IMG/VR virus record: IMGVR_UViG_3300045972_000348
Location: 1-48,193 of that record
DNA: 48,193 nt
Reading direction: 5' to 3' (one strand)
Source of the DNA: a virus
Shown in pieces: positions 2 to 20,456 of this stretch. Numbering within the stretch: the first letter of the stretch is position 1; every line of letters starts with the position of its first letter. A program made the position numbers and the translations under genes. The notes beneath the pieces were generated by a model, which was given only the letters and a program-made list of their open reading frames with translations, searched no databases and had not been told where the DNA came from.

Positions 2-1939
2 ACCCTCGACGCCCCGCGCGTCGCCTCGCAGGGCATGCCCACCCCCTACGAGCAGGCGAACCACCGCGCCGACCAGTACGGAGAATCGGTCATCGGCGAG
101 GCCGCCACCGCAGCCTCGAAGCTGACGCAGCAGCTCGGCGGCATCCTGCTCGACGAGAAAAAGAAGGCCGACCTCACCGCGGTGCAGGAGGCCCTCAACG
201 CGCAGCGCGAGGCCAACGACTCGAATCTGGAGTTCCTGCGTCGGGCGCAGGGCAAGAACGCCGCGGTCGTGTCGGGCGAGGTCTACAAGGACGCGACCGA
301 GCGGACCCGGAAGGCCATGGGCGGCCTGGCCAACGACGAGCAGAAGACCCTCTTCGCCGACGAGGCGAACAAGGAACTGCTCCAGCTCAAGCGCATCGGC
401 GAGGCGCACGTCGGCCAGCAGATTCAGGCCACCCGCGACCAGACCCTCAAGTCCGGCCTGGCCATCGCGACCAAGCGAGCCATCACGGTCGGCGTTGACG
501 CCCCCGACGTGCTTCAGTCCGAGGTCGAGCGCATCGAGCGCGACGTCTCGGTGTACGGGTCGGAGTCGGGCTGGGACGGGGACAGCATCAAGGCCTTCAC
601 CAGCGAGACGCTCTCCAAGGTCTATGGTGGGCACGTCCGCGAGCTGCTTGCGCGAGGCCGCACCGAAGAGGCGCGGGACATCCTGACCGACCCGAAGGTC
701 GAGGCGGCGCTCGGCGACGACGCTGCCGTCCTCCGCGGGCGCGTGCGCGACATCCTCGTCGACCAGGGCGGCGAGCGCGATGCGGCCGACGCCCTGGCCC
801 GCCGGCAGAACAAGGACAAGACGTACAACATGACGGCGGCGCTCGACGACGCCGACAAGAAGTACAAGCCCGGCACGCCCGAGAACAAGGCCATGCGCGC
901 CTCCATCACCTCGCGCGCGTCGGTGGCCGAGCAGGGCCGCCGGCTTCAGGAGGGGCAGAACTGGGACAAGGCCGCCAGCCTCTACCAGGCCCAGTCGTCG
1001 CTCCCCGGCAACCGCTCGGTCTACGAGCTGAAGATGAGCAACCGCGATGCCTGGGACGCCCTGACGCCAGACCAGCAGCACGCCCTGGAGCAGCGCGAGC
1101 ACACCGACAAGAACGCAAAGGACTCGGCGCCGCTGACGAAGCTGCAGGAGGAGGCCCTGGCCCGCCTGGAGAACGACATCGTCGACCGCCCCGACTGGTG
1201 GGGCACCGCGCCCGACAGCGCCCTCACCTCGAACCGCGACTACAACGTCCTGCCCGAGCGGTTCCGCATCCAGCTCCTGGGTCAGGCGTCCCGCGCGAGG
1301 GCAGAGAAGGCGAACCCCGAGGGCGCGATGAAGAGCGCAGAGTCCACCATCCGCGCCCGCGCCCAGAAGATTGGGTACCTGTCGAGCGACACGGTCGGCA
1401 AGCCCTTCGACAAGTGGCCCGACGACGACAAGGCCAAGTGGGTGCCGCTGACGGACGCGGTGCGGCCCCAGGTCGTGGCGTGGCGCATGGACGAGAAGAC
1501 GAAGAAGACCCCGCTGCCCGGCGCGATGGTCGAGGGCTTCGTCGACGAGGCGCAGCGCACGGGCACCATCAAGGGCGGCAGGTGGCTTGGCCTCCGCGAC
1601 GCCCACGGCATCGCGCCCGCGGACGCGGCCGCCCGGCCGGCCAAGGAGCAGGCAGAGCACCCGTACAACATCGACCCGACCGACGACGAGGACACCATCG
1701 GCCGGAAGGTGCAGGGCGCTCGCGGCAAGAGCGAGAAGGCCACGCCCGCCGCCTACGCGCCCGAGGCCCTCATCCAGGCGGCCCGCGACTGGCGCCGCGC
1801 CCAGGCCGGCCCCGACCCGCAGACCAAGGTCGGCATCGAAGAGGGCCTCAAGAAGCTCGGCAGGGCCACCACGCCCGACGTCATCCAGCGGGTTTGGGAG
1901 ACGACTGTCCTCGGCTACGCGCCGACCCAGGGGAAGTAG
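2..1939 (+). CDS. Internal virion (ejection) protein, T7 gp15-like; 3' part of a gene split by the window ends
   Basis: This frame is open from base 2, and the first ATG in the window (35) is unlikely to be the true start. Joined to the ATG at 48162 across the window ends, it gives one protein of about 656 aa whose N-terminus contains the short motif APRVASQG, a style I recognise from podovirus internal virion proteins. The protein is hydrophilic, Ala/Glu/Lys/Arg-rich and mostly predicted helical, with no membrane segment and no visible enzyme motif. It lies directly after a gp14-like gene and ends 3 bases before the giant ejection protein, matching the T7 order gp14-gp15-gp16. The likely role is a structural part of the ejected core or periplasmic tunnel. 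The assignment rests on order and composition rather than a catalytic signature. Confidence 0.75.
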   Translation, partial: TLDAPRVASQGMPTPYEQANHRADQYGESVIGEAATAASKLTQQLGGILLDEKKKADLTAVQEALNAQREANDSNLEFLRRAQGKNAAVVSGEVYKDATERTRKAMGGLANDEQKTLFADEANKELLQLKRIGEAHVGQQIQATRDQTLKSGLAIATKRAITVGVDAPDVLQSEVERIERDVSVYGSESGWDGDSIKAFTSETLSKVYGGHVRELLARGRTEEARDILTDPKVEAALGDDAAVLRGRVRDILVDQGGERDAADALARRQNKDKTYNMTAALDDADKKYKPGTPENKAMRASITSRASVAEQGRRLQEGQNWDKAASLYQAQSSLPGNRSVYELKMSNRDAWDALTPDQQHALEQREHTDKNAKDSAPLTKLQEEALARLENDIVDRPDWWGTAPDSALTSNRDYNVLPERFRIQLLGQASRARAEKANPEGAMKSAESTIRARAQKIGYLSSDTVGKPFDKWPDDDKAKWVPLTDAVRPQVVAWRMDEKTKKTPLPGAMVEGFVDEAQRTGTIKGGRWLGLRDAHGIAPADAAARPAKEQAEHPYNIDPTDDEDTIGRKVQGARGKSEKATPAAYAPEALIQAARDWRRAQAGPDPQTKVGIEEGLKKLGRATTPDVIQRVWETTVLGYAPTQGK

Positions 1940-1942
1940 ACC

Positions 1943-4900
1943 ATGTCCGACACGCTCGACTTCTCCGCGGCCATCGCTGCCGCGCCGCTCGCCTCGTCTC
2001 CTGACGGCCTCCCGCAGCCCGTCCAGCCCGTGCCCGGCACGCCCGGCGCGCCGCCTGCCGCGGGCAATGGCGGGGCCTGGGACCTCCTGAACGAGAACCC
2101 CGACGAGCTGGGGGCCGACCTTCGCCGGACGTACTTCAAGGTCAAGGCCGCGAAGGCCATCCGCGACGAGGAGGCCGCGCAGGCTGCGGCCGCGCCCCCG
2201 CCTCCGACCGTCCCCGCGGCGCCGGCCAAGCTCGACTTCTCGGCCGCCATCGGCGAGGCGCCCCTCCAGGCCCAGGTCGACCTCGACGCGCGGAAGAAGG
2301 ACGAGGCCCGCCAGGCCGAGCTGCTCACCTGGCGCGTGGCCAACGAGAAGCGCGCGCCCGAGGAGCAGGCCGAAATCATGCGCCTGTCCGTCGCCCTCGA
2401 CTGGCACCCCGAGGTCGTGGCCGGCGACCTTCCGGGCGCGCGGAACAAGGCCCTCGCGGCCAAGCTCGACACGGCCACCGTCGTCCGCGACCATCCCGCC
2501 CTGGCCGAGCTGCTGGGCGACCCGAACACCACGGCCCTGGTCCGCGGCGACACCGCGCGCCTGACCGGCCTGTCGTGGCTGCTGGGCGACTGGGAGCTGG
2601 ACCCGACCGCGCCGGCCAAGGGCGGCACGCTGCTGCGCCAGAACGCCCCTGGCGTCGTCGAGGCCATGCTGCGCCAGCGGAGCCTGGCCCGCGAGAACCA
2701 CGGCCTCCTGCTGCAGCTCATGGCGGCCGGCTCCATGAAGGACGCCCTGGCCTCCAAGCCGCTCAACCCCTCGGACATCCCCGTGCCCGAGGGCATGGAC
2801 CCCGAGACGGCCCAGGCCTACCGCGAGGCCAAGATGGCCAGGGCTCGGCCCATGGCCGCGAGCGGCATCAGGCCCGAGAGCCTCTACGCTGGCCAGGCCC
2901 AGAAGGACCCCGCCGAGCTGGAGGCCATCCGCGCGCGCATTCGCGCCAACGACCTGGAGCTGTCCGGCCTCCGCAACGGGGGCGACGGCATCGACGAGCT
3001 GAGCTGGTACAACCCGGCCAAGTACCTCCTGAAGACCGCCCGCGTCCTGACCGACATGGGCCCCGAGATGGCCAAGGGCGCGGTGGCCACGGCCCTGCCC
3101 ATCCCTGGCGCGGCCGAGGCCTTCTGGATGCAGGAGGTCACCCCCGGCATCTACTGGACCCTGTCCGAGCTGAAGGACCCGGCCACCGGCCTGCCCGTGC
3201 TCACCGACGAGGAGGCGCGCGGCTACGCGGCCACGGCCGGCCTCCCCACCGCACTGTCCTTCACGGCCTCGCTGGGCTCGATGGGCCTGGCCGGCAAGGG
3301 CTGGCTCACCTCGAAGCCGCTCGTCGAGAAGGCCCTGGCGAAGCTGCTGCCGGCCTCGGTCGAGAAGCTCCTGTCCTCGCAGGCTGCCTGGGCCTCGGTC
3401 GGGCGCGCCGCCTACAGCTACGGCACGCACCAGCTCCAGGGCGGCGTGATGATGGGCGTGCAGTCGGCCATCACCGCGGCCACCGTTGAGGCGGCCAAGG
3501 CGTCGCACGGCCAGGAGGCCGACGCGGGCGCCATCGCGGCCGCGGTCGAAGAGGGCTTCGTCACCGGCATGAAGGACTTCGTCCTCATCGCTGGCTGGGG
3601 CCCGATGCGCCAGTACTTCGGCGAGCGCGGCCGCATCTCCGCGTCGCACGAGCGCGCCCAGGTCATCCTCGACATCAACCAGAACACCCGCGAGAGCAAG
3701 TTCGCGAAGACCGACCCGGAGGGCTTCGAGAAGTACGTCGCCAAGGTCGGCAAGGGCAAGACCTTCTACGTCGAGCGCGAGGCCATCGCCGAGCTGGCGC
3801 AGAAGAACAAGCTCCCCGCGCGCGAGGTCGCCGCCGGCATCATGGGCGACAAGGGCGAGGCGTGGGACCGGGCCGAGGAGCAGAAGACGCCCCTGGCCAT
3901 CCCGGCAGAGAAGTGGGCGACGAAGGTCGTCATCCCCGAGCACGACAAGGTGCTCACCGAGCACACCCGGATGTCGCTCGAAGACGCGACGCCGGCCCAG
4001 CTCCGCGAGCAGATGAAGGGCATCGTGCGCCGCATAGAGGAGGCGCGAGTCCTCCGCGGCGCGACGTTCGAGGAGGAGGTCCGCGACCTCAACGCGAAGC
4101 TCGAAGGCGCCGCCCGCGCGTCCGGCATCAAGCAGGAGCAGGCGCAGAGCTGGGCGAGCACCGTCAGCCAGTACGTCGCGACGATGTCGCTCTACCTCGA
4201 CAAGCCGGTGCGCGAGACGATGGTGCGCGTCGGCCTGCCGTCGCTGCACCTGTCCGGCCGCAACGTGGTGACGGGCGAGAGCCTGGCCGCCTACCGGGAG
4301 CGCACGGGCGCCCCGAAGAAGGCGCCGGCCGGCGAGCTGGCGAAGACTGGCGAGGCCGTGCGCCCTGCCCCGGAGGCCGTCAAGGCCGAGGCCCCGGCGG
4401 CCGTCGCGCTGCCCGAGCTGGAGGCGCCGGCCCCCGCGCCCGAGCCCCGCCGCGCCCCCGCGCCCGAGCTGGCGCGCGAGCTGGGCGACCTCGACCCGGG
4501 GATGCAGAAGGCCGTGCTGGCCAACCTCCACAAGGAGCTGGGGGTCACGGCCGAGGAGGCCAACCTCATCGGCCAGCGCAACGTGCGCGCCGAGGCCGAG
4601 GTGGACCGGCTGTGGGGCGAGCACCTGGCCTCCGAGCGCAAGGACTGGGAGACGCAGGGCTTCGCCCCCGAGAGCCTTGACGAGGACGGGGTCTACGATG
4701 ACTTCGTCGCCCGGCTGCGCGACCAGCGGCCCGACCTCTTCGAGGAGCATTGGGGTCGGACGGCCAACCCGTTCGGCGTGCGGGGCTACTTCATGTCCGG
4801 CTCGAACCAGCCGGGCGAGATTCGCGCCCTCGCCGACCAGGGGCAGCACATCGGCGTGGCCGCGCCGGACCTCTCGAAGAACGCCATCTCCGAGCTGAAG

Positions 4901-7900
4901 AAGCTCAAGGGCCGCGACGTCAAGGTCTTCGTCGATAGCGGCGCCTTCTCCGAGGTCGAGTTCGGGGCGACCGGCCCCGTGGTGGCGAAGCCCATCTCCC
5001 CGGCCGAGTGGGGGAAGCGGCTGGCGAAGTACAAGGAGCTGGCCCAGGAGCTGGGCGACCAGCTCTACGTCGTCGCCCCCGACATGGTGGCCCACCAGGG
5101 CCCCACGCTGGAGCGGCTCACGACCTACGCGGCCGAGATGCGCGAGCTGAAGAAGCTCGGCGCCAACGTCATCATCCCGCTACAGCAGGGCGAGCTGCCG
5201 CCGGCCGCCTTCCTGGCCAAGGCCCAGGAGGTGCTCGGGTTCAAGGACGTCATCGCTGGCATCCCGTCGATGAAGGACGCCATGCCGCTGGAGGTCATCA
5301 GGACCTTCGCGACCGAGGCGAAGCCCGAGCGCGTCCACCTACTGGGCATCGGCCCGCGCGCGCTGGGCGGGCGCTTCGGCATCATCGTCGACGCCATCGC
5401 CACCGCGAGCCCGAAGACCCAGGTCTTCGCCGACAGCGCGTACCTCGTCTCCCTCAAGGTGAGCGGCCGCGCCTTCACCGAGCGCAAGAACGAGCTGCGC
5501 GCCCGAGGCGTGGAGTCCGGCCGGGACCTGACCGAGCTGACCACGAGCACCACGGTGGCCGACCTCCAGGCCGGCGCGCCGCCGGTCAAGGGGCAGAAGG
5601 GCGGCGAGTCTGCCGGCTCGAAGGCCACCCTGCGCGAGCTGGCGTGGGACAACATCGAGAAGAAGGCGAAGGCCGGCGACGCCGAGGCGCAGAAGCGGCT
5701 GGCCCGCATCAACGAGCTGTCGGACCAGGCCTACAAGAAGAGGGGCCCCGAAGGCGACGCCATCCTGGCCGAGCGGAACCGGCTCCTGGCTGGCGACGAG
5801 TGGGTCGGCGCCGCGGAGCTGCGCGACGCCATCGCCGAGTCGAACCTGGCCGGCGCCATCTCGGTCGAGCAGGCCAAGGAGCTGAAGGCCCGCGTGGCCG
5901 AGGCCCTTGGCGAGGAGGGCGGCAAGGCCACCGACGAAGTGCTGCCGCCGCCGGGCGCTCGCGAGGGCGAGATGGCCCAGCTCCAGAACACGGCCTCCTG
6001 GCTGAAGGACGCCGAAGCCTGGATGCGGACGCAGGGCCACCACGAGGCCGACATCCAGGCCCGGCTGGGTGGCATGGAGGGCCAGCTCAAGCTGCTCCGG
6101 GTGCTCAACCTGGGGACGCTCAACCTCCGCGACGGCGCCCTGATGGACGCGGTCGCCGCCGAGGCTGGCCTTCCCCGCGGGGCTGGACTGAAGAACCCGG
6201 GCAAGAACCTGGGCGGCCCGCTGCGCGCCAATCAGGACGCCATCTACATCCACACCGTCGACTTCTCCGCGCAATGCGTGAAGCGGCTCGGCATGGCCGC
6301 GACCGCGAGCCATCTGGAGAAGCTGACCAACCAGGCACTCGGGCCCGAGGAGCGCATCGCCCTCACCGCGCTGTACCGCGAGGCCGGCCTCATGGCGGCC
6401 TGCCTGTACTGCTACGTCGAGGCTCCGCGCGCGAAGGCCAGCGAGTTCCTGAACAACGGGCTCCGCGCGGTCTTCGAGCGCGAGGCGCCGCTGCCCGAGG
6501 GGTGGAAGGGCGAGACGCTGGAGCTGGTGAAGAAGGCCCGCGCGGAGGCTGACGGGAGCGGCATCGAGCCGGGCGAGTTCTCGGTCGTCGGCTACATGGA
6601 CCCCGAGCTGGAGCAGGGCGGCGAGCACAAGGGCCAGGCCGAGCTGAACCCCGCCATCCACGAGCTGATGCTCGCGATGCGCGGCGCCGCGAAGCCCAAC
6701 CTCCCGAAACTCTATGAGGAGTACGTCTCCCAGGTCCTGAAGCTGAAGCCCGAGGAGGTCCAGCAGCTCAACGACTTCGCCGGCCTCCGCATCTTCAGCT
6801 CGTCCGACTTCCAGTCCGAGCACATCGTCGACGTCGTCCAGCTCGTCACGCACATGGAGCTGATTGGGCTGAAGAGCCACGCCTACACCAAGGTGGCCGA
6901 CTTCGCCCTGATGGCCGGCGGGACCGGCACCAAGATTGGCACCTCGGTCTTCGCCCTCGCGGCAGGCCGGGTCGAGGAGCGCGACGGCCACATGGTCGTG
7001 CTCCAGGGCGCGGGCAAGGGCGCGACCGAGGTGGAGCTGAAGCGGTTCAAGGGCACGGGCGAGGCCGCCAAGAAGCGCGCCTTCGACTGGCTCGACGAGC
7101 ACGAGCCCGAGGGCGGCTTCGCCCAGGACACCTTCCAGGGCATGGACTGGCAGGACGCGCAGTACCTGTCGGCCCGCTTCGATGACGTCGGCGGGATGTT
7201 CGTCTCGACGTCGTCCGCGCAGACGCGCTGGGCAATGAAGCAGCCCTGGATTCACCAGATCATCCCGTACCACGCGAGCGGCCTGCCGGCCGAGTACGCG
7301 CGCGCCTCGGGCTGGAAGGACTTCTCGCGCATCCAGAGCGAGCATTGGAAGGTCAAGCCGGCCGACGAGGTGACCGAGGTCGGGGCCGTCCACAAGCTCA
7401 CCGTCGACGGCAAGGAGGCCGGCACCTACCCGACCGCCAGCGCGGCGAACGCGGAGGTCAAGCGCATCCGCGCCGAGCGGAAGGCGGCTGGCCAGCCCAA
7501 GCCGAAGGTGGCCCTGGAGTCCACGCCCGGCGAGGTCCGCGTCGTGCGGGACGGGGTCGAGCTGGGGCGCTTCGCCAGCAAGGGCGAGGCAAAGGAGGCA
7601 ATGGACCCGCCGAAGGTGCGGATGCACGAGCTGGGGCTGGCCGAGGGCGAGGCTGCCGGCGGCGGCGCGCTGGCCGCGGTCGAGCGGTACGTCGCGCTCG
7701 TCGAGGCCCGGGGGCTCACGCCGGTCTTCGAGAAGTTCATGCGGAACGAGGACGGGTCGCTGAACCCCGACTTCCTCAAGCTCAAGAAGGACTACGCGCG
7801 CACCGACTCGCCCTTCCGCACGGTCAAGGCCTCGGGCCTCGACATGGCGCACGCCGACCGGCTCCTCGCTGCCTGGATGGCCGACCCGAAGCGCGGCAAG

Positions 7901-10900
7901 GCCGAGCCGAACATGGAGATGGCCGAGAAGCTCCTGGCCCTCATGGAGCATCGGAAGGTGCAGGGCAAGGACGCGGCGGGCGAGTGGAAGGTGCCCATCG
8001 GGCGCGAGGCCCTCGTCCACCAGCAGGCGAACAGCGACATCGTCAGCGGCGTGAAGAGCGGCCGGGTCGAGGTTGGCTCGGCGAAGCGGCCGGCCAAGCC
8101 GGACCCCCGCATCTCCGAGCCCCAGGTCGTGGCCTTCCTCGGCGACGCCCGCGGCGGGCGCATCGAGGTGAGCAGGCCGGCAGGCGTCCCGCCCAGGGTG
8201 GCTGCCGAGGGCGAGCTGGCGCAGGCCCCGCGGGCCGCCCGCTTCCAGAAGGCCGCCTTCGACGCGGTGCGTGCGGTGCTCAAGCCCGAGCTGCTGAAGG
8301 CCGACCGGCGCGCGCAGTACGAGGGCCAGTCCCGCTTCGCCGGCCATTGCGCTGGCGCCACCGACGCGCTCTCCGACCTTCTGGGCGGCCGCGCCAACGG
8401 CTGGACCCACATGGTCATCAAGCGGGAGTTCCTCGGCGGCGCGGACACCCACCACTTCCTGAAGAACGAGCTGACGGGCGAGGTCGTCGACCCGACCGCC
8501 GAGCAGTTCGAGGGCGGGGTCATCCCCTACGAGAAGGCCACCCGCTACGGGATGCCCCGCTCGTCGAAGCACACCGGCCCGACCAAGCTCTCGCAGGGCA
8601 TCCTGTCCGAGGTGGCGCGGAACCGCGTCCTGGGCCAGGTCATCCGAGGCCGGGCGCGCGAGCTGCTTCGCGCCAGCGGCGCGCTGGAGCTGGAGGGCGA
8701 GCTGGCGCAGGAGGCGCGAGCCCTTCCCGTCCGAGGCGGCTCGGGGCCTAATGGGGAGATGGTCGTCCTCTCCCTCTTCGACGGACTCGGCGGGGCCCGC
8801 GTTGCGCTGAAGAAGCTCGGCGCGGACGTCAAGTATTACCGCTCCGAGCTGACCGGCAGCGAGCCCTTCATCAAGGGCGAGGACCGGCGCTTCCTCCGCG
8901 AGACGAATAAGATTCACGCCTCCAACTTCCCCGACTCGGTGAACCTTGGCGACGTCCGCGGCGTGAAGTCCGGCAGCGTCCCGCATCAGGTCGACCTCTT
9001 GGTCGGCGGGTCGCCCTGCCAAGACCTGTCGCCCCTGGCCGCCGTCAGGAAGGGCGGGCGCAAGGGCCTGGAGGGCGGGAAGAGCAGCCTGTTCTGGGAG
9101 TACGTTCGCGTCGTCAAGGAGACGAAGCCCAAGGACATCCTTTTCGAGAACGTCGGGAAGATGGCCGACGTCGACCGCGACATCATCACCGAGGCCCTCT
9201 CCGAGGCTCTCGGCCGGAAGGTCGAGCCGGTCAGGCTGGATGCGGCCGACTTCTCGTCGATGCGGCGCGACCGCTACTTCTGGACGACCATCCCGGTGGC
9301 CGAGCGGGCCAAGCTCGACATCCCCAGCTTCGGCGACATCCTCGACAAGCAGCCCGACCCGTCGCTCTACCTGTCGAAGACGGCCGAGGCCATGCTCGAC
9401 CGGCCGGCTAAGGACGGCCGAACCCACGGGGAGCGACACACCATCGTGGCCGGCAAGCCCGGCGACCCGCACTACGAGCGGGCCACGACCATCACCAAGA
9501 ATTTCCACAAGGGCGTCCCGAACAACTCCCTCGTCGACTCCACGGGGCGGCGCCGGTTCATCTCGCAGGGCGAGGCCGAGCGGGCCTTCGGTCTGCCCGA
9601 GGGCACGACCAGGGAGGCCAGCTACCGCGCCGCCCTGCACGCGATGGGCAACGGCTTCTCGGTGCCCGTCGTCGAGCATATCCTGAAGGGCGCGTTCACC
9701 TCTGAGGAGGGCTTCCTCGACCAGGCCAGCCTGGAGGGCGTGGCCATCAAGGAGGAGGGCGGGGTCCTGACGCTCAAGAACCCCGAGACGAACCTCTACC
9801 TTCTGTCCACCGTGAAGCCCGGTACCCGCATGATGGAGGCCAGCCTGCTCGGCCTCGACCGCTCGGGCCCGGCCGGCTCCAGCTCCTACGAGCGGGCCGT
9901 CGCCGCGGAGAAGGGCAAGGGCTACTCCAGCGCGTACTACCTTCGCCTGCTCGTCGAGGCTCGGGCCCGCGGCTACGGGGTCGAGTCCGACGTCTCTCGC
10001 ACCCCAGCCACCGAGCGGATGTACAAGCGGCTCGGTGAGCTGGGCATCCCGTTCGAGAAGCGCGTCGACCCGGGGACCGACCTGTCCCGGTGGGTGCTCG
10101 ACGCCGAGGTGCTCGGCACCATCGACCTTGAGGGCGCATGGCGCGACCTCCAGGCGAAGACCCGCGCCTCCCTTGGCGAGCTGCGCCAGCAGAAGCGCGG
10201 CACCATCCGCTTCCGGCTCGGGCCCACCGGCCGGCCGGTCGACTTCGACATCTCCGCACTGCGGGGCGACGCGAGCACGCTCGCGCACGAGACCGGGCAC
10301 TGGCTCTCGTGGTCCCTTCATGAGGTGGCGATGGACCGCGGCGTGCCCGAGGGCGTCCGCGCCGACTACGCTCGCCTGCTGAAGTTCGCCGGCTTCGAGT
10401 CCCCCGAGGCGCGCGAGGCCGAGAACGCCGAGCGCACCATGCTCTCGAAGAAGAAGAGCCGGACGACCGAGGAGGACGCCCGCATCGAGCAGCTCTCCGC
10501 GAAGGAGGAGCGCATCTCTCATGCCTGGGAGCAGTACCTGGCCGAGGGCAAGGCCCCGAGCGGCGAGCTGAAGCCGGCCTTCTCGCGCTTCCGGCGCTGG
10601 ATGACCGAGGTCTACGGCAACATCGACGCCATCAAGTCCCAGTACCGCGAGAACTACAAGCAGGAGCTGGAGCTGTCCGATGAGGTGCGCGGCGTGTTCG
10701 ACCGGATGCTCGCGGTCGACAAGGTCATCGACGAGCAGCGCACCGAGGTCGAGAGCTTCGACTACTCGACCGTGCTGAACCTCACGCCCTCCGACCAGGC
10801 GAAGCTCGCCGAGCTGCGAGTCAAGCGGCAGGAGGAAGCGCGGGACCGGCTCGACTCGAAGGTCGTGAAGGACGACGGCCGCTCGGCCCGTGGCGAGCTG

Positions 10901-13900
10901 GGCGCCGAGCGCGAGCGCATCGAGCTGGAGGTGGAGCAGGAGCTGCGGGCGACCCCCGTCTACCTGGCCACCGAGTTCCTCGACAGCGGCTCGCTGCGGA
11001 ACCCCGACACCGGCCGACTCTACACGCTGAAGGAGCTGCCCGACGCGCTGAAGGATGGCCAGGGCAAGGCCCTGAAGCTCAATGTGCGCGACGTCGCCGT
11101 CCTGCTGGGCGAGGCCGAGGCCGCGAAGATGGTCAAGGCCGGCCGGGCCGTGAAGGAGGGGGGCGTCAACCCCGACGAGCTGGCCCCCCTGCTCGGGTTC
11201 GACTCGGGCGAGGCTATGGTCCGCGCGGTCGCCTTCACCCTGCCCGTCGAGAGGGCCATCGCCAACGAGGCGACGAAGCGGTTCGAGCAGACCTACGGGC
11301 CGGCCCTGGCGAAGGACACCGAGGCCCTCTCGCAGCACGGCCGCGACGCCATGCACAACCCGGCCGACATCGAGGAGGCCCTGCACGTTCGCGACGTCAT
11401 CGCGCGCGAGCTGGGCACCCCGGCCGAGAAGGGCGGGAAGCTCCCCCACAAGATTCTGAAGGCCAACGTGCGCCGCATCATCGAGGGCACCCGGCTGGAG
11501 GAACTGTCGGCGAAGACGTACCTCGTCTCCGAGCGCGAGGGCGCGAAGCGGGCCCACGAGCTGCTGGCCGAGGCGGCGCGCGCTGCCAAGAACGGCAAGG
11601 TCGAGGAGGCGAAGGGGCTCTACACCGAGGCCCTCCACGAGTGGGACGCGGTCGTCCTGGCCAAGATGCTCTGGGAGCGGGCCGACGCAATCACCAAGGA
11701 GATGGACCGCACCGAGGTCAAGATGAAGCGGCTGGAGCTGGTCGCCAGCTCGGCCAACCTGGGCAAGGCCAGCATCGGCTACAGCGACGCGGTCGACGCG
11801 GTCCTGAAGGCCACCGGCTTCCGCGACGGGCGCGGCCGCGGGGGCGCCATCGACGCTGCCCTGGCCTCCATGAAGGAGGACGGGGGCGAGGTCGTGGTCG
11901 GCGCCAACGGCCGGCTCGAAGCTGCCCTCTGGGACAGCGAGGCCATCCGCGAGCTGGTCGACCAGCCGCGCGCGTGGGAGTACCTGACCGTCGCCGAGGC
12001 CCGCAACGTGGCCGACGCGATGGAGAACATCCGGGTGACTGCCACCCGCAAGAACAAGGTCCGCGTCGGCGAGAAGGTCATGGACCGCCAGGACCTGTTC
12101 GACGCCACGTCCCTGTCCCTGGCGAAGACCTTCCCTGGCGAGGCGCGCGACCCCAAGGCCCTGGCGCTGTGGGGCAAGCTGAAGGAGGGCGGCCGGCGCA
12201 TCCTCTCCTCGGTCGACGCCAACCTCACCGAGATGGAGGCCATCGCCGAGCGGCTGGCCGGCGGCGACCGGAACCACCCGGTCTGGAAGCTGCTCGTCGA
12301 GGAGCGGCTGAAGTGCCGCGACCGCGAGCTGGAGCTGTCGGCCCAGTTCGTCGACCGCATCGAGACCATCTGGAACGTCCTGCCCGAGAAGATGCGGAAG
12401 AGCATGGGCGACGTCATCGAGGGGCTGGAGGTCGAGCTGCCGATGCCCGACACGGGCGGCATCATCAACCCGAAGTCGAAGATGACCCGGTCCCAGCTCT
12501 GGATGATTGCCCTCAACCTGGGCAACGACGGGAACAGGCAGCGGCTCGTCGACGGCATGGGCTGGTCCGAGGCGAAGGTCATGGCCGCGCTGGAGAAGCA
12601 CATGACGGCCGACGAGTGGCTCTGGGTCCAGGGCGTCTGGGACTCGCTGGCCACCCTCTACCCGCACATCGAGAAGGTCCACATCGCCGACCAGGGCCTG
12701 CGCCCTGCCGAGGTGGAGGCCGTGTCCTTCAAGGTCACGACCGCCGAGGGCTACGAGATGGAGCTGCGCGGCGGCTACTTCCCTGCCCGGTATGACCCGC
12801 GCGTCCCTGCCAAGGGGAACGTGAGCGAGCGCCAGGAGGCCGCGACGGTCGAGGCCATGCAGGGCCCCAACTACCGCAAGCCGAAGGTGCTCACCACGCA
12901 CGCGCAGAAGCGCGCCCAGGAGTTCGAGGCCGTGGTCAACCTCGACTTCGGCCTGGTGCCGGCCCACGTCTCCCAGGTCATCCACGATGTGACCCACCGG
13001 CTCTACGTCAAGGAGGCCGCGTCGGTCGTGCTCCACCCTGACTTCAAGACGCTCGTCCGCGGGCGCATGGGCCCCGAGTACGAGAAGCAGTTTCCGGCCT
13101 GGCTGATGGCCGTGGCGTCCAGCAACGCCGACTCGGCCGCCGCCGCGATGGGGACCATGAACGCGGTGCTTTCGTGGTCGAAGAGCAGGGCCACCATGGC
13201 GGCCGTGGGCGCCAACATCGCCACGCCGCTGGCCGACCTGACCAACCCGCTCCTCCCGCTCATGGCGGGCGAGGTGTCGGCCCGGCACCTGGCCCGCGTC
13301 ACCGCGAAGCTCGGCCGCAACTGGAACGAGTTCCGCACCTTCGCCCTGGAGAACAGCCCCGAGCTGCGCGCCCGCCTGAAGCACGGCAACAGCCTGGGCC
13401 TCGACATCGGGAAGATGCTCGACCACTCCTTCTCGCACGACATCGAGAAGTACGCCTACGCGATGATGGAGGCCAGCGACCGCGCCACCTCCACGCCGGT
13501 CTGGCTCGCGAAGTACTACCAGCTCATCGAGAAGGGCGTGCCCCACGCCGAGGCCGTGCGCGACTCGGACGCCCTGGTCCGCAAGTACTTCCCCTCCAGC
13601 GACCAGGCCTCGAAGGCCAATCTGCTGCGCGACAAGGGCTTCTGGGGCTCGGTCACCTTCCTGGCCGGCTTCGCCAACAAGCTCTACAACGTGAACCGCA
13701 GGACCATCACCAACGCTGCGGACGCATGGCGCGAGCCCGGCGCGACGAAGATGGACAAGGCCGAGGCCATCGGCACGGCGATGTTCGTGCTGGTGGGCCA
13801 GGCTGCGGTGCTCGGCGTGGCCGGCGACTTCATGTCGGGTCGCGGGCCGAAGAAGAAGGACGACGACGCGAAGGGCGTCGCGAAGTGGGCTGGCGAGCGC

Positions 13901-14269
13901 GTGCTTGCCACCATCCCCTACCAGCTCGGCCCTCTCGCCTCGGCCTTCAACCCGGGCGGGCGAGGCGGCCTGCCGGCGGGCTCCCTCCTGGGCAAGCTGC
14001 TCACCGAGGGCAAGAGTGCCTTCTTCGAGGACGGCCGGACGTCCCTCGACCCCCGCCACCACGGTCCCGCTGAGATTCTTGGCGCGCTGGGCGCGGGGCT
14101 CGTCTTCCAGGGCGCCGGCCTCAACCAGCTCACCAAGACCGGCCGCTACATCGACCGGAACATGAGCCGCGACTGGCGCGCCGGCCGCTACCGCTCCATC
14201 CCCTCGGGCCTCATCTTCGGAGACAAGGCGCAGACCGAGTCCGACAACCTCATCAACTGGGGGGAGTAG
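1943..14269 (+). CDS. Giant polyvalent ejection protein (4108 aa) with several embedded enzyme domains
   Basis: This occupies the gp16 position, last of the ejection proteins, and is several times longer than T7 gp16. Approximate layout by residue: 1-110 low complexity with a repeated LDFSAAI motif; 350-560 hydrophobic, membrane-active-like; 945-1185 TGT/DpdA-like (DSGAF, D998; ADSAY, D1164); 1425-1770 radical-SAM-like (C1445, C1487-x2-C1490); 2125-2225 YunG-like cysteine peptidase fold (C2136); 2270-2590 C5 DNA methyltransferase (SLFDGLGG, PCQ with C2359, ENV at 2402, GNG near 2569); 2610-2715 GNAT-like; 2755-2870 zincin (HETGH, H2782); then long helical regions and a hydrophobic segment near 3941-3966 with a basic tail. 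Polyvalent proteins are known to enter the host with phage DNA. That this one does so is inferred from its position. Individual domains range from strong (methyltransferase, zincin) to tentative (radical SAM, GNAT). Confidence 0.85.
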   Translation: MSDTLDFSAAIAAAPLASSPDGLPQPVQPVPGTPGAPPAAGNGGAWDLLNENPDELGADLRRTYFKVKAAKAIRDEEAAQAAAAPPPPTVPAAPAKLDFSAAIGEAPLQAQVDLDARKKDEARQAELLTWRVANEKRAPEEQAEIMRLSVALDWHPEVVAGDLPGARNKALAAKLDTATVVRDHPALAELLGDPNTTALVRGDTARLTGLSWLLGDWELDPTAPAKGGTLLRQNAPGVVEAMLRQRSLARENHGLLLQLMAAGSMKDALASKPLNPSDIPVPEGMDPETAQAYREAKMARARPMAASGIRPESLYAGQAQKDPAELEAIRARIRANDLELSGLRNGGDGIDELSWYNPAKYLLKTARVLTDMGPEMAKGAVATALPIPGAAEAFWMQEVTPGIYWTLSELKDPATGLPVLTDEEARGYAATAGLPTALSFTASLGSMGLAGKGWLTSKPLVEKALAKLLPASVEKLLSSQAAWASVGRAAYSYGTHQLQGGVMMGVQSAITAATVEAAKASHGQEADAGAIAAAVEEGFVTGMKDFVLIAGWGPMRQYFGERGRISASHERAQVILDINQNTRESKFAKTDPEGFEKYVAKVGKGKTFYVEREAIAELAQKNKLPAREVAAGIMGDKGEAWDRAEEQKTPLAIPAEKWATKVVIPEHDKVLTEHTRMSLEDATPAQLREQMKGIVRRIEEARVLRGATFEEEVRDLNAKLEGAARASGIKQEQAQSWASTVSQYVATMSLYLDKPVRETMVRVGLPSLHLSGRNVVTGESLAAYRERTGAPKKAPAGELAKTGEAVRPAPEAVKAEAPAAVALPELEAPAPAPEPRRAPAPELARELGDLDPGMQKAVLANLHKELGVTAEEANLIGQRNVRAEAEVDRLWGEHLASERKDWETQGFAPESLDEDGVYDDFVARLRDQRPDLFEEHWGRTANPFGVRGYFMSGSNQPGEIRALADQGQHIGVAAPDLSKNAISELKKLKGRDVKVFVDSGAFSEVEFGATGPVVAKPISPAEWGKRLAKYKELAQELGDQLYVVAPDMVAHQGPTLERLTTYAAEMRELKKLGANVIIPLQQGELPPAAFLAKAQEVLGFKDVIAGIPSMKDAMPLEVIRTFATEAKPERVHLLGIGPRALGGRFGIIVDAIATASPKTQVFADSAYLVSLKVSGRAFTERKNELRARGVESGRDLTELTTSTTVADLQAGAPPVKGQKGGESAGSKATLRELAWDNIEKKAKAGDAEAQKRLARINELSDQAYKKRGPEGDAILAERNRLLAGDEWVGAAELRDAIAESNLAGAISVEQAKELKARVAEALGEEGGKATDEVLPPPGAREGEMAQLQNTASWLKDAEAWMRTQGHHEADIQARLGGMEGQLKLLRVLNLGTLNLRDGALMDAVAAEAGLPRGAGLKNPGKNLGGPLRANQDAIYIHTVDFSAQCVKRLGMAATASHLEKLTNQALGPEERIALTALYREAGLMAACLYCYVEAPRAKASEFLNNGLRAVFEREAPLPEGWKGETLELVKKARAEADGSGIEPGEFSVVGYMDPELEQGGEHKGQAELNPAIHELMLAMRGAAKPNLPKLYEEYVSQVLKLKPEEVQQLNDFAGLRIFSSSDFQSEHIVDVVQLVTHMELIGLKSHAYTKVADFALMAGGTGTKIGTSVFALAAGRVEERDGHMVVLQGAGKGATEVELKRFKGTGEAAKKRAFDWLDEHEPEGGFAQDTFQGMDWQDAQYLSARFDDVGGMFVSTSSAQTRWAMKQPWIHQIIPYHASGLPAEYARASGWKDFSRIQSEHWKVKPADEVTEVGAVHKLTVDGKEAGTYPTASAANAEVKRIRAERKAAGQPKPKVALESTPGEVRVVRDGVELGRFASKGEAKEAMDPPKVRMHELGLAEGEAAGGGALAAVERYVALVEARGLTPVFEKFMRNEDGSLNPDFLKLKKDYARTDSPFRTVKASGLDMAHADRLLAAWMADPKRGKAEPNMEMAEKLLALMEHRKVQGKDAAGEWKVPIGREALVHQQANSDIVSGVKSGRVEVGSAKRPAKPDPRISEPQVVAFLGDARGGRIEVSRPAGVPPRVAAEGELAQAPRAARFQKAAFDAVRAVLKPELLKADRRAQYEGQSRFAGHCAGATDALSDLLGGRANGWTHMVIKREFLGGADTHHFLKNELTGEVVDPTAEQFEGGVIPYEKATRYGMPRSSKHTGPTKLSQGILSEVARNRVLGQVIRGRARELLRASGALELEGELAQEARALPVRGGSGPNGEMVVLSLFDGLGGARVALKKLGADVKYYRSELTGSEPFIKGEDRRFLRETNKIHASNFPDSVNLGDVRGVKSGSVPHQVDLLVGGSPCQDLSPLAAVRKGGRKGLEGGKSSLFWEYVRVVKETKPKDILFENVGKMADVDRDIITEALSEALGRKVEPVRLDAADFSSMRRDRYFWTTIPVAERAKLDIPSFGDILDKQPDPSLYLSKTAEAMLDRPAKDGRTHGERHTIVAGKPGDPHYERATTITKNFHKGVPNNSLVDSTGRRRFISQGEAERAFGLPEGTTREASYRAALHAMGNGFSVPVVEHILKGAFTSEEGFLDQASLEGVAIKEEGGVLTLKNPETNLYLLSTVKPGTRMMEASLLGLDRSGPAGSSSYERAVAAEKGKGYSSAYYLRLLVEARARGYGVESDVSRTPATERMYKRLGELGIPFEKRVDPGTDLSRWVLDAEVLGTIDLEGAWRDLQAKTRASLGELRQQKRGTIRFRLGPTGRPVDFDISALRGDASTLAHETGHWLSWSLHEVAMDRGVPEGVRADYARLLKFAGFESPEAREAENAERTMLSKKKSRTTEEDARIEQLSAKEERISHAWEQYLAEGKAPSGELKPAFSRFRRWMTEVYGNIDAIKSQYRENYKQELELSDEVRGVFDRMLAVDKVIDEQRTEVESFDYSTVLNLTPSDQAKLAELRVKRQEEARDRLDSKVVKDDGRSARGELGAERERIELEVEQELRATPVYLATEFLDSGSLRNPDTGRLYTLKELPDALKDGQGKALKLNVRDVAVLLGEAEAAKMVKAGRAVKEGGVNPDELAPLLGFDSGEAMVRAVAFTLPVERAIANEATKRFEQTYGPALAKDTEALSQHGRDAMHNPADIEEALHVRDVIARELGTPAEKGGKLPHKILKANVRRIIEGTRLEELSAKTYLVSEREGAKRAHELLAEAARAAKNGKVEEAKGLYTEALHEWDAVVLAKMLWERADAITKEMDRTEVKMKRLELVASSANLGKASIGYSDAVDAVLKATGFRDGRGRGGAIDAALASMKEDGGEVVVGANGRLEAALWDSEAIRELVDQPRAWEYLTVAEARNVADAMENIRVTATRKNKVRVGEKVMDRQDLFDATSLSLAKTFPGEARDPKALALWGKLKEGGRRILSSVDANLTEMEAIAERLAGGDRNHPVWKLLVEERLKCRDRELELSAQFVDRIETIWNVLPEKMRKSMGDVIEGLEVELPMPDTGGIINPKSKMTRSQLWMIALNLGNDGNRQRLVDGMGWSEAKVMAALEKHMTADEWLWVQGVWDSLATLYPHIEKVHIADQGLRPAEVEAVSFKVTTAEGYEMELRGGYFPARYDPRVPAKGNVSERQEAATVEAMQGPNYRKPKVLTTHAQKRAQEFEAVVNLDFGLVPAHVSQVIHDVTHRLYVKEAASVVLHPDFKTLVRGRMGPEYEKQFPAWLMAVASSNADSAAAAMGTMNAVLSWSKSRATMAAVGANIATPLADLTNPLLPLMAGEVSARHLARVTAKLGRNWNEFRTFALENSPELRARLKHGNSLGLDIGKMLDHSFSHDIEKYAYAMMEASDRATSTPVWLAKYYQLIEKGVPHAEAVRDSDALVRKYFPSSDQASKANLLRDKGFWGSVTFLAGFANKLYNVNRRTITNAADAWREPGATKMDKAEAIGTAMFVLVGQAAVLGVAGDFMSGRGPKKKDDDAKGVAKWAGERVLATIPYQLGPLASAFNPGGRGGLPAGSLLGKLLTEGKSAFFEDGRTSLDPRHHGPAEILGALGAGLVFQGAGLNQLTKTGRYIDRNMSRDWRAGRYRSIPSGLIFGDKAQTESDNLINWGE

Positions 14270-14272
14270 GCC

Positions 14273-15244
14273 ATGCCCGTCATCAAGCTCACCTCGTACC
14301 AGCTCCTGACGGCCGACCTCGCCAGCGACCAGGCCCTGGCCATCCTCCGCAACGAGGCCGACCTGGCCGCCCAGGCTGCCGCCGCCGCAGCCCAGCTCAC
14401 GGCCGGCGCGGCCCAGTCCACGGCCGATGCCGCCATCCCCAACGCGGCCGGCTCGGTGGGGTCCGGCAACATCGCGGACGGGGCCGTGTCGATGGGCAAG
14501 CTTGCCGTCGACGCCATCCGCACCAGCGACTACGCGGAGGACGGGAACGGCAACGCCACGTCCGGCGTGAAGATGTTTGCCGGGGCCAGCGGCGTCACGG
14601 CCCCGCTCCGCATCGCGCCGGGCGGCGCCCGAATCGGAAGCGTGAGCATGGACGAGCCCCTGGTCGCGTCGCTCAAGTCCATCGCTCGACTGGACTCGTC
14701 CGCGTCGAGGGTCTGGTATCGAGGGAACAACAACAAGGACGTGACTGGCGGCGCCCCCAACATCTCCGCGCTCTTCATCAGGGCGGCCCGCGAGAACCAG
14801 TCCTCTGGCCTGTTCGGCATCCAGCTCAGGCTCCAGCCGACCTCTCCAGACGACAACCTCGACGCCATGAGGTTCGTCAGGCTGGACGCCTACACGGGGA
14901 CCACGGGCGGGGCAACCCTCAGTCAGACGCACTTCGTCCCAATCTCGGACCGGCTCTACAACAGCGCGACCGACAGCGACTCCTCCAACTACGCATACGC
15001 CACCTACCACTTCACCGATGGTCAGTACTCCCTGTTTACGGGGAGCGGGAACCGATTCTTCTTCCTGGCCCGGCTCTACAACGCCTACGGGGCATCTGCG
15101 TCGGCGTGGTTCTACCCCAGCAGCAACACCTGGGGCGCGGACCTTGGGCGGAGCCTGACCACTTGCCCCTTCTCGGGCGGCAGCTCGCCCGGCGGCGGGG
15201 GCGGCGGGGGCGGCGGGGGCGGCGGGGGCATCCGCGTCAACTAG
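14273..15244 (+). CDS. Putative second tail fibre or spike protein with poly-Gly C-terminus
   Basis: The ATG lies 3 bases after the giant gene's stop, with a GGGGAG-type ribosome site overlapping that stop. The 323-aa product starts with an Ala-rich helical stretch (about 25-65) followed by a fibre-like segment (SGNIADGAVSMGKLAVDAI), typical of phage fibre N-termini. Residues 120-295 are rich in Ser, Thr, Tyr and Asn and look beta-structured, and the protein ends in a run of glycines before IRVN. It sits between the ejection genes and the lysis genes. A receptor-binding or fibre-tip role is plausible, but I do not recognise a specific family. Gly-rich tips occur on some phage adhesins, though the single long Gly run here is simpler than those. 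Confidence 0.55.
   Translation: MPVIKLTSYQLLTADLASDQALAILRNEADLAAQAAAAAAQLTAGAAQSTADAAIPNAAGSVGSGNIADGAVSMGKLAVDAIRTSDYAEDGNGNATSGVKMFAGASGVTAPLRIAPGGARIGSVSMDEPLVASLKSIARLDSSASRVWYRGNNNKDVTGGAPNISALFIRAARENQSSGLFGIQLRLQPTSPDDNLDAMRFVRLDAYTGTTGGATLSQTHFVPISDRLYNSATDSDSSNYAYATYHFTDGQYSLFTGSGNRFFFLARLYNAYGASASAWFYPSSNTWGADLGRSLTTCPFSGGSSPGGGGGGGGGGGGGIRVN
15191..15229 (+). repeat. Tandem 9-nt repeat encoding poly-glycine
   Basis: Four perfect tandem copies of GGCGGCGGG plus a partial fifth encode the Gly run at the end of the upstream fibre-like protein. Such a tract can slip during replication and change the tail length or frame near the stop. Confidence 0.85.
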
Positions 15245-16673: not shown

Positions 16674-16916
16674 ATGAGCCACCTCGTCACGCTGCGCCTG
16701 GCCTACTGGCGCCAGGTCATCACCGACACCCCCTGCCCCGAGCCGCTCTGCGGCGCGAAGGAGGGCCAGGGCTGCGCCGGAAGCTGGGAGCCCGTCGTCC
16801 ACCAGCGTCGGCTGCGCCTTGCCCTGGCCGTCCGCAACATCGCCGAGGCCGCTGGCCTGCCGGTCGACTGCCAGAGCATCGTCGAGGAGCAGGGCAAGCA
16901 CGGGAAGGAGAGCTGA
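16674..16916 (+). CDS. Small zinc-finger-type protein upstream of the integrase
   Basis: The 80-aa product starts at an ATG with a strong AAGGAGG site. Residues 20-48 contain CPEPLCGAKEGQGC followed by a downstream His, an arrangement matching small phage zinc-finger DNA-binding proteins of the type CPxCGA-x-GxxC-x-H. The likely role is DNA binding, perhaps as a recombination directionality factor or regulator because it sits 2 bases from the integrase start, but it lacks a recognisable excisionase winged helix. The zinc-ligand reading is from the motif; the partner role is inference. Confidence 0.6.
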   Translation: MSHLVTLRLAYWRQVITDTPCPEPLCGAKEGQGCAGSWEPVVHQRRLRLALAVRNIAEAAGLPVDCQSIVEEQGKHGKES

Positions 16917-16917
16917 C

Positions 16918-17937
16918 ATGGCCTGGGTCACGGTCGAGGGCTGGGCGGGTCGGGTCTGGGTCGCGGACAACGGAAAGCGGACCTTCTACATCAGGCAGTA
17001 TCGGGACGGCAAGCCGTGGGAGGTCTCGACGAAGTGCTCCCGGCTGCCGGGCGCGCTGAAGGAGCTGGACCGCTTCGAGAAGGACCCCGCCGGCTACCGG
17101 CCGCAGGGTGTCGGCGAGCAGCTCGTGCTCGACGAGCAGCTCATCACCCGCTACCGCGCCTGGTGCGAGGACACGGCCCGGCAGGACGGCAAGGAGCTGG
17201 ACCCGCGGTGGCTCGACGCGAAGGAGCGGTACCTGGGCTGGTGGGCCGAGCAGCTCAAGGGCCGGCCGCTCGGCGCGGTGAAGCTCTCGCGCATCTTGGA
17301 GCTGCTCGTCGGCACGACCAGCCGGCGCGACCGCACCGTCTCCATCAAGCACCTCTACTCGTACCTGCGCCAGACCGACCAGCTCGCGGCCGCCGAGGAC
17401 CCCACGCTCGACGCGCTGCCGGTGGCGCAGTCGAAGCCAGAGCAGGACTCGACGGGGGAGTCGAAGGTCATCCCCGAGGCCGACTTCCGCGCGGCGCTGC
17501 CGCACCTCGACCCGGTGTTCGCTGACGCCTGCTGGATGATGGCCGGCACGGGCTGCCACCTCTCCGAGGTCATCCGCTACATCAAGCTCGGCGTCTGCGA
17601 GGAGGGCCAGGTGCTCGGCTTCCGGCACAAGGGCGGCCACATCCACCGCGTGCGCGTCGCGCTGCCCACCTGGGAGGCGGCGAAGCGGCTCAAGGCGCAG
17701 GCCTGGGCGCCGAGCCGGAAGGCCTTCTACGATGCCATCAACAAGGCCTGCGGCGCGGCGAAGGTCGAGCCCTGGACGCCTGGCCGCTTCCGGCACACCT
17801 TCGCGACGACCGCCATCGCGTCCGGCGTCGACCCCGAGGCCGTGGCGCGCGCGCTGGGCCACAAGTGCTCGGCCACCACGCTGCGCTGGTACGCGACGAC
17901 GGCCGTCGTCCAGGGCGCGCAGGGTGGGTACCTGTAG
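16918..17937 (+). CDS. int: Tyrosine recombinase (phage integrase), active-site variant
   Basis: The 339-aa product would integrate and excise the phage genome at att sites. The start is the ATG after GGAAGGAGAG, only 2 bases past the upstream gene. Residues 70-165 form a core-binding-like helical domain, and the catalytic domain follows. Visible active-site elements are a beta-hairpin Lys (K238), R292-H293 in GRFRHTFAT, H315 in ALGHK, and the nucleophile Y325 in TLRWYAT. The usual box I Arg (as in TGLRxSE) is replaced by His in TGCHLSE (H214), and the usual His before LRHT is Gly (TPGRF). I recall related integrases with TPGRFRHS/T motifs, so this may be a natural subfamily rather than a dead enzyme. 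Confidence 0.88.
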   Translation: MAWVTVEGWAGRVWVADNGKRTFYIRQYRDGKPWEVSTKCSRLPGALKELDRFEKDPAGYRPQGVGEQLVLDEQLITRYRAWCEDTARQDGKELDPRWLDAKERYLGWWAEQLKGRPLGAVKLSRILELLVGTTSRRDRTVSIKHLYSYLRQTDQLAAAEDPTLDALPVAQSKPEQDSTGESKVIPEADFRAALPHLDPVFADACWMMAGTGCHLSEVIRYIKLGVCEEGQVLGFRHKGGHIHRVRVALPTWEAAKRLKAQAWAPSRKAFYDAINKACGAAKVEPWTPGRFRHTFATTAIASGVDPEAVARALGHKCSATTLRWYATTAVVQGAQGGYL

Positions 17938-19094: not shown

Positions 19095-19499
19095 CTACCG
19101 GGCCAGGCGCCCCAGCGCGGACTCCACGTCGACGTAGTGCTCCACCTCGGCCAGCCAGTAGAAGATAGGGCAGTCGAGCGCCGGGTCCTTCCCTGGCGCA
19201 GCGCCGCCCACGACCATGACCCTGACGCCCAGGGCGATGGCCATGCCCAGCTCGACGTAGGCGCCGCGGGCGGCCGGGTCGTGGAGCAGGAGGAAGACCT
19301 CGGCCTCGGCCACGCCGCAGGCGTCGGCCAGGGCGCAGCCCCTGAAGTGGGCGTCGCGCACCGCGCTGGTCGCGCCGGCCATCTCGTCTTCGTGCGTCCA
19401 GTCGTGCGTGATGGTGTGCCCCATGGCGCGGAGCTGGGCCATCACGGCCTGGGCCTCGGCGCGCCGGCTCCACTTCGTCCCGACGTAGACCGCGCTCAC
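19095..19499 (-). CDS. Nucleoside 2-deoxyribosyltransferase-like protein
   Basis: The 134-aa product has the Rossmann-like layout of this family: an N-terminal strand (VYVGTKW), an acidic helix region with D59, a strand with VFLLLHDP, and the signature GAYVELGMAIALGVRVMVVGG, in which E83 corresponds to the catalytic Glu. Family members cleave or exchange the N-glycosidic bond of deoxynucleosides or nucleotide derivatives, and some relatives act on NAD-like substrates. The length fits. The GTG start overlaps the previous stop (GTGA). It lies two genes below the dATP/dGTP diphosphohydrolase-like gene, suggesting a small nucleotide-metabolism group. The exact substrate cannot be read from sequence. 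Confidence 0.7.
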   Translation of the reverse strand: MSAVYVGTKWSRRAEAQAVMAQLRAMGHTITHDWTHEDEMAGATSAVRDAHFRGCALADACGVAEAEVFLLLHDPAARGAYVELGMAIALGVRVMVVGGAAPGKDPALDCPIFYWLAEVEHYVDVESALGRLAR

Positions 19500-19681: not shown

Positions 19682-19857
19682 CACGCCCTCCCGCTCGGCA
19701 TGTCGCCGAAGATGGTCATGTGCATCAGGGCCCGGCGGGCCTGGAGGTCGCTCACCAGCTCCAGCTCGGGGCGAGGCGTGCGCCGGCCCAGCCAGAAGCC
19801 CAGGCAGAAGCACGCCGCGCCGAAGCACCAGCAGCTCACCACGAGGAGCCAGTTCAC
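19681..19857 (-). CDS. Small single-pass membrane protein (58 aa)
   Basis: The GTG start overlaps the upstream stop (GTGA). Residues 3-24 (NWLLVVSCWCFGAACFCLGF) form a hydrophobic, Cys-rich segment followed by a charged region, so the protein is likely anchored in the inner membrane with a cytoplasmic tail. It lies among nucleotide-metabolism genes. Function unknown. Confidence 0.55.
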   Translation of the reverse strand: MNWLLVVSCWCFGAACFCLGFWLGRRTPRPELELVSDLQARRALMHMTIFGDMPSGRA

Positions 19858-20456
19858 GCGGCCTCCGAGTCGGCGATGGTGTAGTGGCGCGGGTCCTTGC
19901 CGGCGGCCTTCGCCTTGAGGCTGGCGACGTGCGGCGTGAGGCCCGCGATGAAGGCGTCCATGTCGATGCTGGGCGGCCGGTCGTCGGTGAGCTTCCCGCA
20001 GGCCCGGGAGTCGACGATGATGTTGAGGCAGGCCAGGGCGTGCGCCAGGTGCGGCAGCCCGCTGTCGGAGTCCAGCTCCTGGCCGTTCTCCCACTTGGCG
20101 ATGTGCCGCTTGAGGGCGTCGAGGTAGATGGAGGCGCGCACGCCGGCCTTGCGCCAGTTCCACTTGCCGTAGGACAGCGCGCCGGCCAGGTGGGCGAGCG
20201 ACGCCAGGGCGATGGCCGTCTCGGGCACCAGGCTCATCGGCAGCTTCGTCGCGCCGATGGCGTCCTTCGGGTTCGTGTCCTTGGTCGGCTCGACGACCGG
20301 GCGGTCGGGGTCGGCCAGCTCGATGGCGGCCTCGAAGTCCGAGCAGAAGTCGTGGATGTTGCGCCAGGGGATCTTGTTCCCGGTCTTCGCGCAGACCACG
20401 CTGCTGCGGGGGGTGACCTTGCCCTTCAGCCTGCACTTCCGGCAGTCGTCGCTCAC
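19854..20456 (-). CDS. dATP/dGTP diphosphohydrolase-like protein (PF18909-type domain)
   Basis: The 200-aa product contains the family's characteristic core TNPKDAIGATKLPMSLVPE (from about residue 61), followed by a helical region with GKWNWRKAG, YLDALKRHIAKWENG and DSGLPHLAHALACLNIIVD, which carries acidic and His residues expected to bind metal. Proteins with this domain are common in phages and are linked to hydrolysis of purine dNTPs. The N-terminus has extra Cys pairs (C5, C8, C22) that may bind zinc. The GTG start overlaps the upstream stop. No PurZ-like partner is present, so a 2-aminoadenine genome is not indicated. Confidence 0.75.
   Translation of the reverse strand: MSDDCRKCRLKGKVTPRSSVVCAKTGNKIPWRNIHDFCSDFEAAIELADPDRPVVEPTKDTNPKDAIGATKLPMSLVPETAIALASLAHLAGALSYGKWNWRKAGVRASIYLDALKRHIAKWENGQELDSDSGLPHLAHALACLNIIVDSRACGKLTDDRPPSIDMDAFIAGLTPHVASLKAKAAGKDPRHYTIADSEAA

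Follow-up and report, generated by a model that had tools for sequence, protein, structure and literature searches.

The 48,193-base window analyzed here (IMG/VR record IMGVR_UViG_3300045972_000348 over its full length; GC about 70%) encodes a giant protein of 4108 aa that is very likely a polyvalent ejection protein, with terminal parts shared among podoviruses and an exchangeable middle part. Several unrelated domains lie in the one polypeptide (C5 methyltransferase, zincin, YunG-like, TGT-like, and CxxC). The reading as a whole, a frame plus DNA- or RNA-modifying cargo, is one that we favor with some reservation, and anti-restriction as the purpose of the cargo is a tentative proposal. The open reading frame is exactly the one claimed in an earlier note. 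The features, all on the plus strand, are as follows.

35 to 1939, plus strand: upstream neighbor, a 634-aa protein in the structural-lysozyme position (phrog_1044, 1.6e-8, N-terminal part only)
1943 to 14269, plus strand: 4108-aa giant gene, BPP-1-type polyvalent ejection protein (open reading frame, codon-position GC, synteny, homology to cultured-phage giants)
2339 to 2581, plus strand: shared N-terminal frame, with a probable LPD22 domain at residues 133-213 (Pfam 5.2e-5, under the cut-off)
3485 to 4072, plus strand: further part of the shared frame, conserved N-terminal residues 515-710 (blastp/phmmer, E to 1e-7)
4775 to 5497, plus strand: TGT/DpdA-like domain, residues about 945-1185, cargo (phrog_887, Myxococcota homologues, HHalign, low-confidence barrel-like model)
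5972 to 7912, plus strand: CxxC domain, residues 1344-1990, cargo, with C1445, C1487, and C1490 (conserved family; stand-alone relative L201, 4e-23)
8255 to 8557, plus strand: YunG-like domain, residues 2105-2205, cargo (phrog_12251 1.7e-10, Pfam YunG 0.0033)
8750 to 9712, plus strand: C5 DNA methyltransferase, residues 2270-2590, cargo (Pfam 1.2e-25, phrog_116 1.5e-43, TIGR00675 1.4e-25, PDB DNMT3A 9e-14)
9890 to 10072, plus strand: weak GNAT-like stretch, either cargo or linker, residues about 2650-2710 (phmmer 5e-12 to the relative L095 only)
10160 to 14002, plus strand: C-terminal core, residues 2740-4020, beginning with the zincin motif HETGH at 2782 (phrog_9880 5.6e-141; alignment invariants; HExxH in relatives)
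45065 to 47140, plus strand: tail tube B/nozzle-type protein, phrog_376 (5.2e-163)
47564 to 48154, plus strand: internal virion protein, phrog_418 (2.8e-19)

In the record, genes for terminase and the major head protein come before those for the two tail tube proteins (A, then B) and the internal virion protein; across the contig ends follow the 634-aa protein, the giant gene, and another late gene. The order that runs from the tail tubes (A before B) through the internal virion protein, the lysozyme-position protein, and the giant gene to a tail fibre or other late gene is that of BPP-1-like podoviruses; it was shared with BPP-1, Carin1, HU1, AF, CP2, vibriophages, and others. The giant gene adjoins late virion genes, as expected of polyvalent proteins, and this synteny bears out the position of last ejection protein in a podovirus that had been proposed for it. 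An integrase gene (16819-17937) suggests a temperate lifestyle, and the phage is probably a temperate BPP-1-like podovirus. No end repeats were found in this metagenomic record. Because the contig ends (48154 and 35) fall between two genes that are adjacent in relatives, the genome is probably nearly complete and circularly permuted despite the missing repeat. For the C-terminal core, the best match among genomes was to a Myxococcales MAG contig, at 33% identity, which makes a myxococcal host likely. A DNA-level search with the whole giant gene gave no match among 50,697 phage records. Elsewhere in the window, two minus-strand stretches resembled, by eye, a nucleoside deoxyribosyltransferase-type protein (19095-19499) and a DUF5664-type dATP/dGTP diphosphohydrolase (19854-20456).

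Both ends of the giant protein were recovered in relatives. In the cultured relatives tested, LPD22 scored strongly at the N-terminus, and the weaker match of the giant protein lies at the corresponding place. Residues 515-710 matched Carin1, a Nostoc phage, BPP-1, and IMG/VR giants. The C-terminal core, which contains one hydrophobic segment (residues 3940-3965, by hydropathy), was 22-25% identical to the giants of cultured phages. Its relatives comprise at least 588 IMG/VR stretches and at least 219 genome stretches, and those studied were the best 80 of the former and the best 80 of 219 of the latter. HExxH was present at the zincin place in every one of the 88 frames covering it, from a set of 92 relative frames. 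The HETGH motif is conserved, which confirms the zincin of the earlier note, but the zincin listed there as an effector domain was ruled out as an extra effector, since HExxH belongs to the core of every relative. Full-length relatives measured 1839 to 4254 aa; thus, a length of 4108 aa is great yet sets no record. The N-terminal and C-terminal parts are probably a common frame, for head packing and for passage through the tail/envelope with the DNA.

Between these parts lies a variable cassette (about residues 710-2735). The cassettes that 50 relatives carry at the same place contained ART-PolyVal (21/50), PBECR5 (five), and GGDEF (five), with LPD3, GNAT, Zeta, MuF_C, and RadC among the further contents; the effector of the BPP-1 cassette is PBECR1. 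Compared across relatives, the region has the character of cargo swapped between phages. The earlier claim of a polyvalent ejection protein is supported by gene order, by LPD22, by a zincin common to all relatives, and by the swappable cassette. In this view, many podoviruses (588 or more IMG/VR stretches) have in common an ejection protein that is a delivery frame with a swappable cargo slot, an idea open to testing through the cultured relatives BPP-1, AF, and Carin1.

That misassembly joined unrelated genes into the giant frame is extremely improbable. The metagenomic origin of the record, its ends without repeats, and the observation that the identical set of cargo domains was seen in none of the relatives compared would suit such an origin, but the frame is single and open, both of its ends come from one ejection-protein family, and its insert occupies the place at which relatives carry theirs. 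CxxC and GNAT-like stretches also co-occur in the relative L095. Moreover, codon-position GC was even throughout (third position 0.93-0.98 in all 300-codon blocks), so the open reading frame reads as a single coding gene. An antisense frame of 3223 aa beneath it (5339-15010, minus strand) is most likely a by-product of the third-position GC of 0.96.

Two of the relatives deserve a remark of their own. In Nostoc phage Nsp-JY18 (L010:829-12867), a 4012-aa relative is annotated as "lysin"; LPD22 aside, its long cassette is without a Pfam family. Limnohabitans phage DC33 (L012, PQ492659.1) has a 3125-aa BPP-1-like giant, yet its taxonomy line reads Inoviridae, a classification that looks wrong given this gene.

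Within the cassette, the C5 DNA methyltransferase claimed earlier was confirmed by the profile and PDB matches (values above), and its identity is certain at the level of sequence. Motifs I (2279), IV PCQ (2358), VI ENV (2402), VIII (2441), and X (2569) occur in proper order, and the domain is predicted to be intact. No C5 methyltransferase match was found in the other giants of the set; some of those giants do have a distinct gene with a domain of this type in their vicinity. The phage of L052 (G009) carries a stand-alone phrog_887 (DpdA2-like) gene (L102:1501-2244) directly followed by a frame matching C5 methyltransferases (2079-3608), and it also encodes a 4254-aa giant protein. The YunG-like domain is likely from its phrog_12251 match, which agrees with the proposed YunG-like peptidase, but Pfam YunG did not reach its cut-off (18 bits vs. 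27). Candidate catalytic residues, chosen by eye, are C2136, H2170/2171, and D2183. For the GNAT-like domain of the earlier note, similarity was found only to a stretch of L095, no Pfam match was obtained in the giant protein, and the assignment is weak.

The TGT-like domain is probably a distant DpdA/TGT-type barrel related to phrog_887/DpdA2-like proteins. In a single-profile test, phrog_887 matched the record over part of the profile (4.8e-5); among 30 other records, it matched the phage of L052 alone, in a separate gene. Stand-alone homologues were found in two Myxococcota genomes (4e-45 and 1e-16), one of them beside a RadC-like ORF. With these homologues included, HHalign against nine phage phrog_887-type proteins scored 29.6 (maximum of 100 column shuffles, 19.4), whereas the domain of the giant protein alone gave P = 0.045, so that the similarity became clear only after the Myxococcota homologues were added. 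Against thirteen cellular TGTs the score was 18.2, within the shuffles (maximum 25.9), which counts against a nucleic-acid-modifying cargo. Pfam TGT (PF01702) did not match the giant protein. The evidence for the TGT-like domain of the earlier note is, therefore, moderate: the phrog_887 match and the HHalign score beyond shuffles speak for it, but the Pfam result does not. The order of motifs is shared, by eye, with phrog_887/DpdA2-like proteins at very low identity, and divergence in that alignment was too great for use in scans. Some phage phrog_887-type genes adjoin a VUT/DUF165-type or 6-carboxytetrahydropterin synthase gene. Such neighbors are expected for deazaguanine pathways.

The AlphaFold model of this domain (single sequence; mean pLDDT 58) showed alternating strands and helices and was barrel-like. 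A TGT-specific fold could not be read from it, as it matched barrels of a general kind, deoxyribose-phosphate aldolase among them (TM about 0.44). Among candidate relatives, a weak match in L213 was set aside because it fell on what looks like a universal-stress-type protein. A tblastn search with residues 901-2110 against phages gave no match. Single-sequence IMG/VR scans with the TGT-like and TGT plus CxxC regions returned no relative, because the exact 8-mers used are strict.

The CxxC domain is a new family, real but rare and almost confined to such giant genes, as judged from nine sequences (the giant protein and eight other IMG/VR contigs). All eight contigs carry the domain within a giant frame of 2737-3687 aa; a BPP-1-type core is present in L080, L095, and L099, and in the L117 giant the domain is combined with ART, Zeta, and LPD38. 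Conserved features are D-x4-C, CxYCYVE, RxFS-x-SDF, TK, and IP-x-H. The cysteines are spaced C-x41-C-x2-C in the giant protein and CX8CX2C in the simplest members, L101 and L201. L201, from Moorella phage MTATph1, is a stand-alone protein of 231 aa; it was reached with the divergent query L117 (2e-4) and, in a small-scale comparison, matched the profile of the family (4e-23). It is unannotated (L201:1399-2094), has a second cysteine-rich C-terminus, and is the smallest family member. The L080 domain as a query gave no match in cultured phages, a pattern scan of 84,980 genomes gave 70 pattern matches with none confirmed, and a search of 195 Myxococcota genomes found none.

The earlier note had called this domain radical-SAM-like; a conserved family was indeed recovered, but the enzymatic label is unproven. 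A radical-SAM-type Fe-S enzyme is a somewhat doubtful reading. It agrees with the three conserved cysteines (one, then CxxC) and their CX8CX2C spacing in L101 and L201, with a Pfam GP88 match of L117 (1e-5), and with the order of FSxxD and (Y/L)TK motifs that the family shares, by eye, with GP88 and DUF5131 proteins. Yet the domain of the giant protein matched neither Pfam nor NCBIfam, no DUF5131 match was obtained and the HHalign comparison of the family with DUF5131 was not significant, the PDB yielded no match by sequence or fold, and the spacing differs from the canonical CX3CX2C. The AlphaFold model built from the nine sequences was poor (pLDDT 70, pTM 0.58), and the PDB search with it found no fold relative. 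We therefore treat radical SAM as a lead rather than a result for this otherwise conserved family.

Of the six enzyme-like domains claimed in the earlier note, then, the C5 methyltransferase is certain and the YunG-like and TGT-like domains are probable, but radical SAM is unproven, GNAT is weak, and the zincin is core. By analogy with polyvalent proteins, JC1, and P1 DarB, the giant protein would travel inside the phage head and leave it together with the DNA, and both packaging and injection are probable on that ground. A search for virion proteomics found none on this phage and none on the giant protein of BPP-1, where coverage is of head proteins only. After entry, the zincin probably frees or processes the cargo, in line with the zincin processing that Iyer et al. 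proposed for polyvalent proteins (PMC5512222). The cargo would most likely act early and on nucleic acids: the C5 methyltransferase may methylate the incoming DNA and so protect it from restriction, the TGT/DpdA-like domain may act on guanines of DNA or tRNA, and the remaining domains may add modifications or target host molecules.

TGT-like enzymes in general have tRNA as their target. This, together with the cargo of relatives, which is mostly of toxin/effector type (ART, PBECR nucleases, Zeta), is what one would expect of a cargo that, soon after infection begins, acts on the host (its tRNA, proteins, or chromosome) or on resident elements rather than protecting phage DNA. We consider that reading rather unlikely, as DNA protection is what C5 methyltransferases typically provide and DpdA-type phage enzymes shield DNA (PMC6884629). 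Host targeting and DNA protection can be compatible, as tasks of different domains of one chain. Very unlikely is the most far-reaching version of DNA protection, in which an injected DpdA-like base exchange, a cytosine methyltransferase, and a new radical-SAM-type Fe-S enzyme would modify incoming DNA at two bases before phage gene expression. If packaged base exchange were true, it would be a new route of DNA protection at entry.

The giant protein very probably belongs with the polyvalent proteins that Iyer et al. (2017) described and forms no new category. The earlier suggestion of an unusual, perhaps undescribed combination applies to the cargo set but not to the class or the number of domains, both already known, with 2 to 15 domains per chain in the account of Iyer et al. 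(PMC5512222). Shared with those proteins are many unrelated domains per chain, the zincin, a probable LPD domain, and a place among virion genes; the methylases treated there at length are adenine-specific, whereas a C5 enzyme is present here. The main text of PMC5512222 has no mention of queuine, TGT, radical SAM, or YunG. In the main texts of open-access papers, no polyvalent protein was found described with a TGT-like or a CxxC domain, and full-text search of the same scope returned no LPD22 in other phage papers; given that scope, such absence is weak evidence. The TGT/DpdA-like domain and the CxxC family would then be two added cargo types for which no description was found.

BPP-1 Bbp10, Carin1 gp32, AF_016 of phage AF, HU1, and CP2 ORF24 (phrog_9880) have the same genomic place, zincin, and C-terminal core, along with an N-terminal LPD22 whose counterpart in the giant protein scores under the Pfam cut-off. 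They differ in length (about 2000-2900 aa) and carry one recognizable effector (PBECR1, PBECR5, or LPD23) or none, in contrast to the 2000-residue multi-domain cassette found here. The Bcep22-like podovirus JC1 also has a giant protein at the end of the virion gene block and a methylase-related anti-restriction idea (PMC9144972). Its 4515-aa DarB-like protein was found in virions by mass spectrometry (51 unique peptides; PMC9144972), and P1 DarB is located in the virion head (PMC9024508), whereas packaging of the present protein is deduced. The DarB type fuses an adenine methylase to an SF2 helicase; Pfam detected no such architecture in the giant protein, giving a C5 methylase and no helicase. 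The CxxC relative in MTATph1 (CDS0078, WPA89565.1) differs in being stand-alone and in its additional C-terminal cysteines. Finally, the phage phrog_887/DpdA2-like proteins (PMC6884629) agree, by eye, in motif order with the TGT-like domain and, once its Myxococcota homologues are included, score above all shuffles against it; the domain differs in its fusion into a giant chain and in having stand-alone Myxococcota proteins as its nearest homologues.
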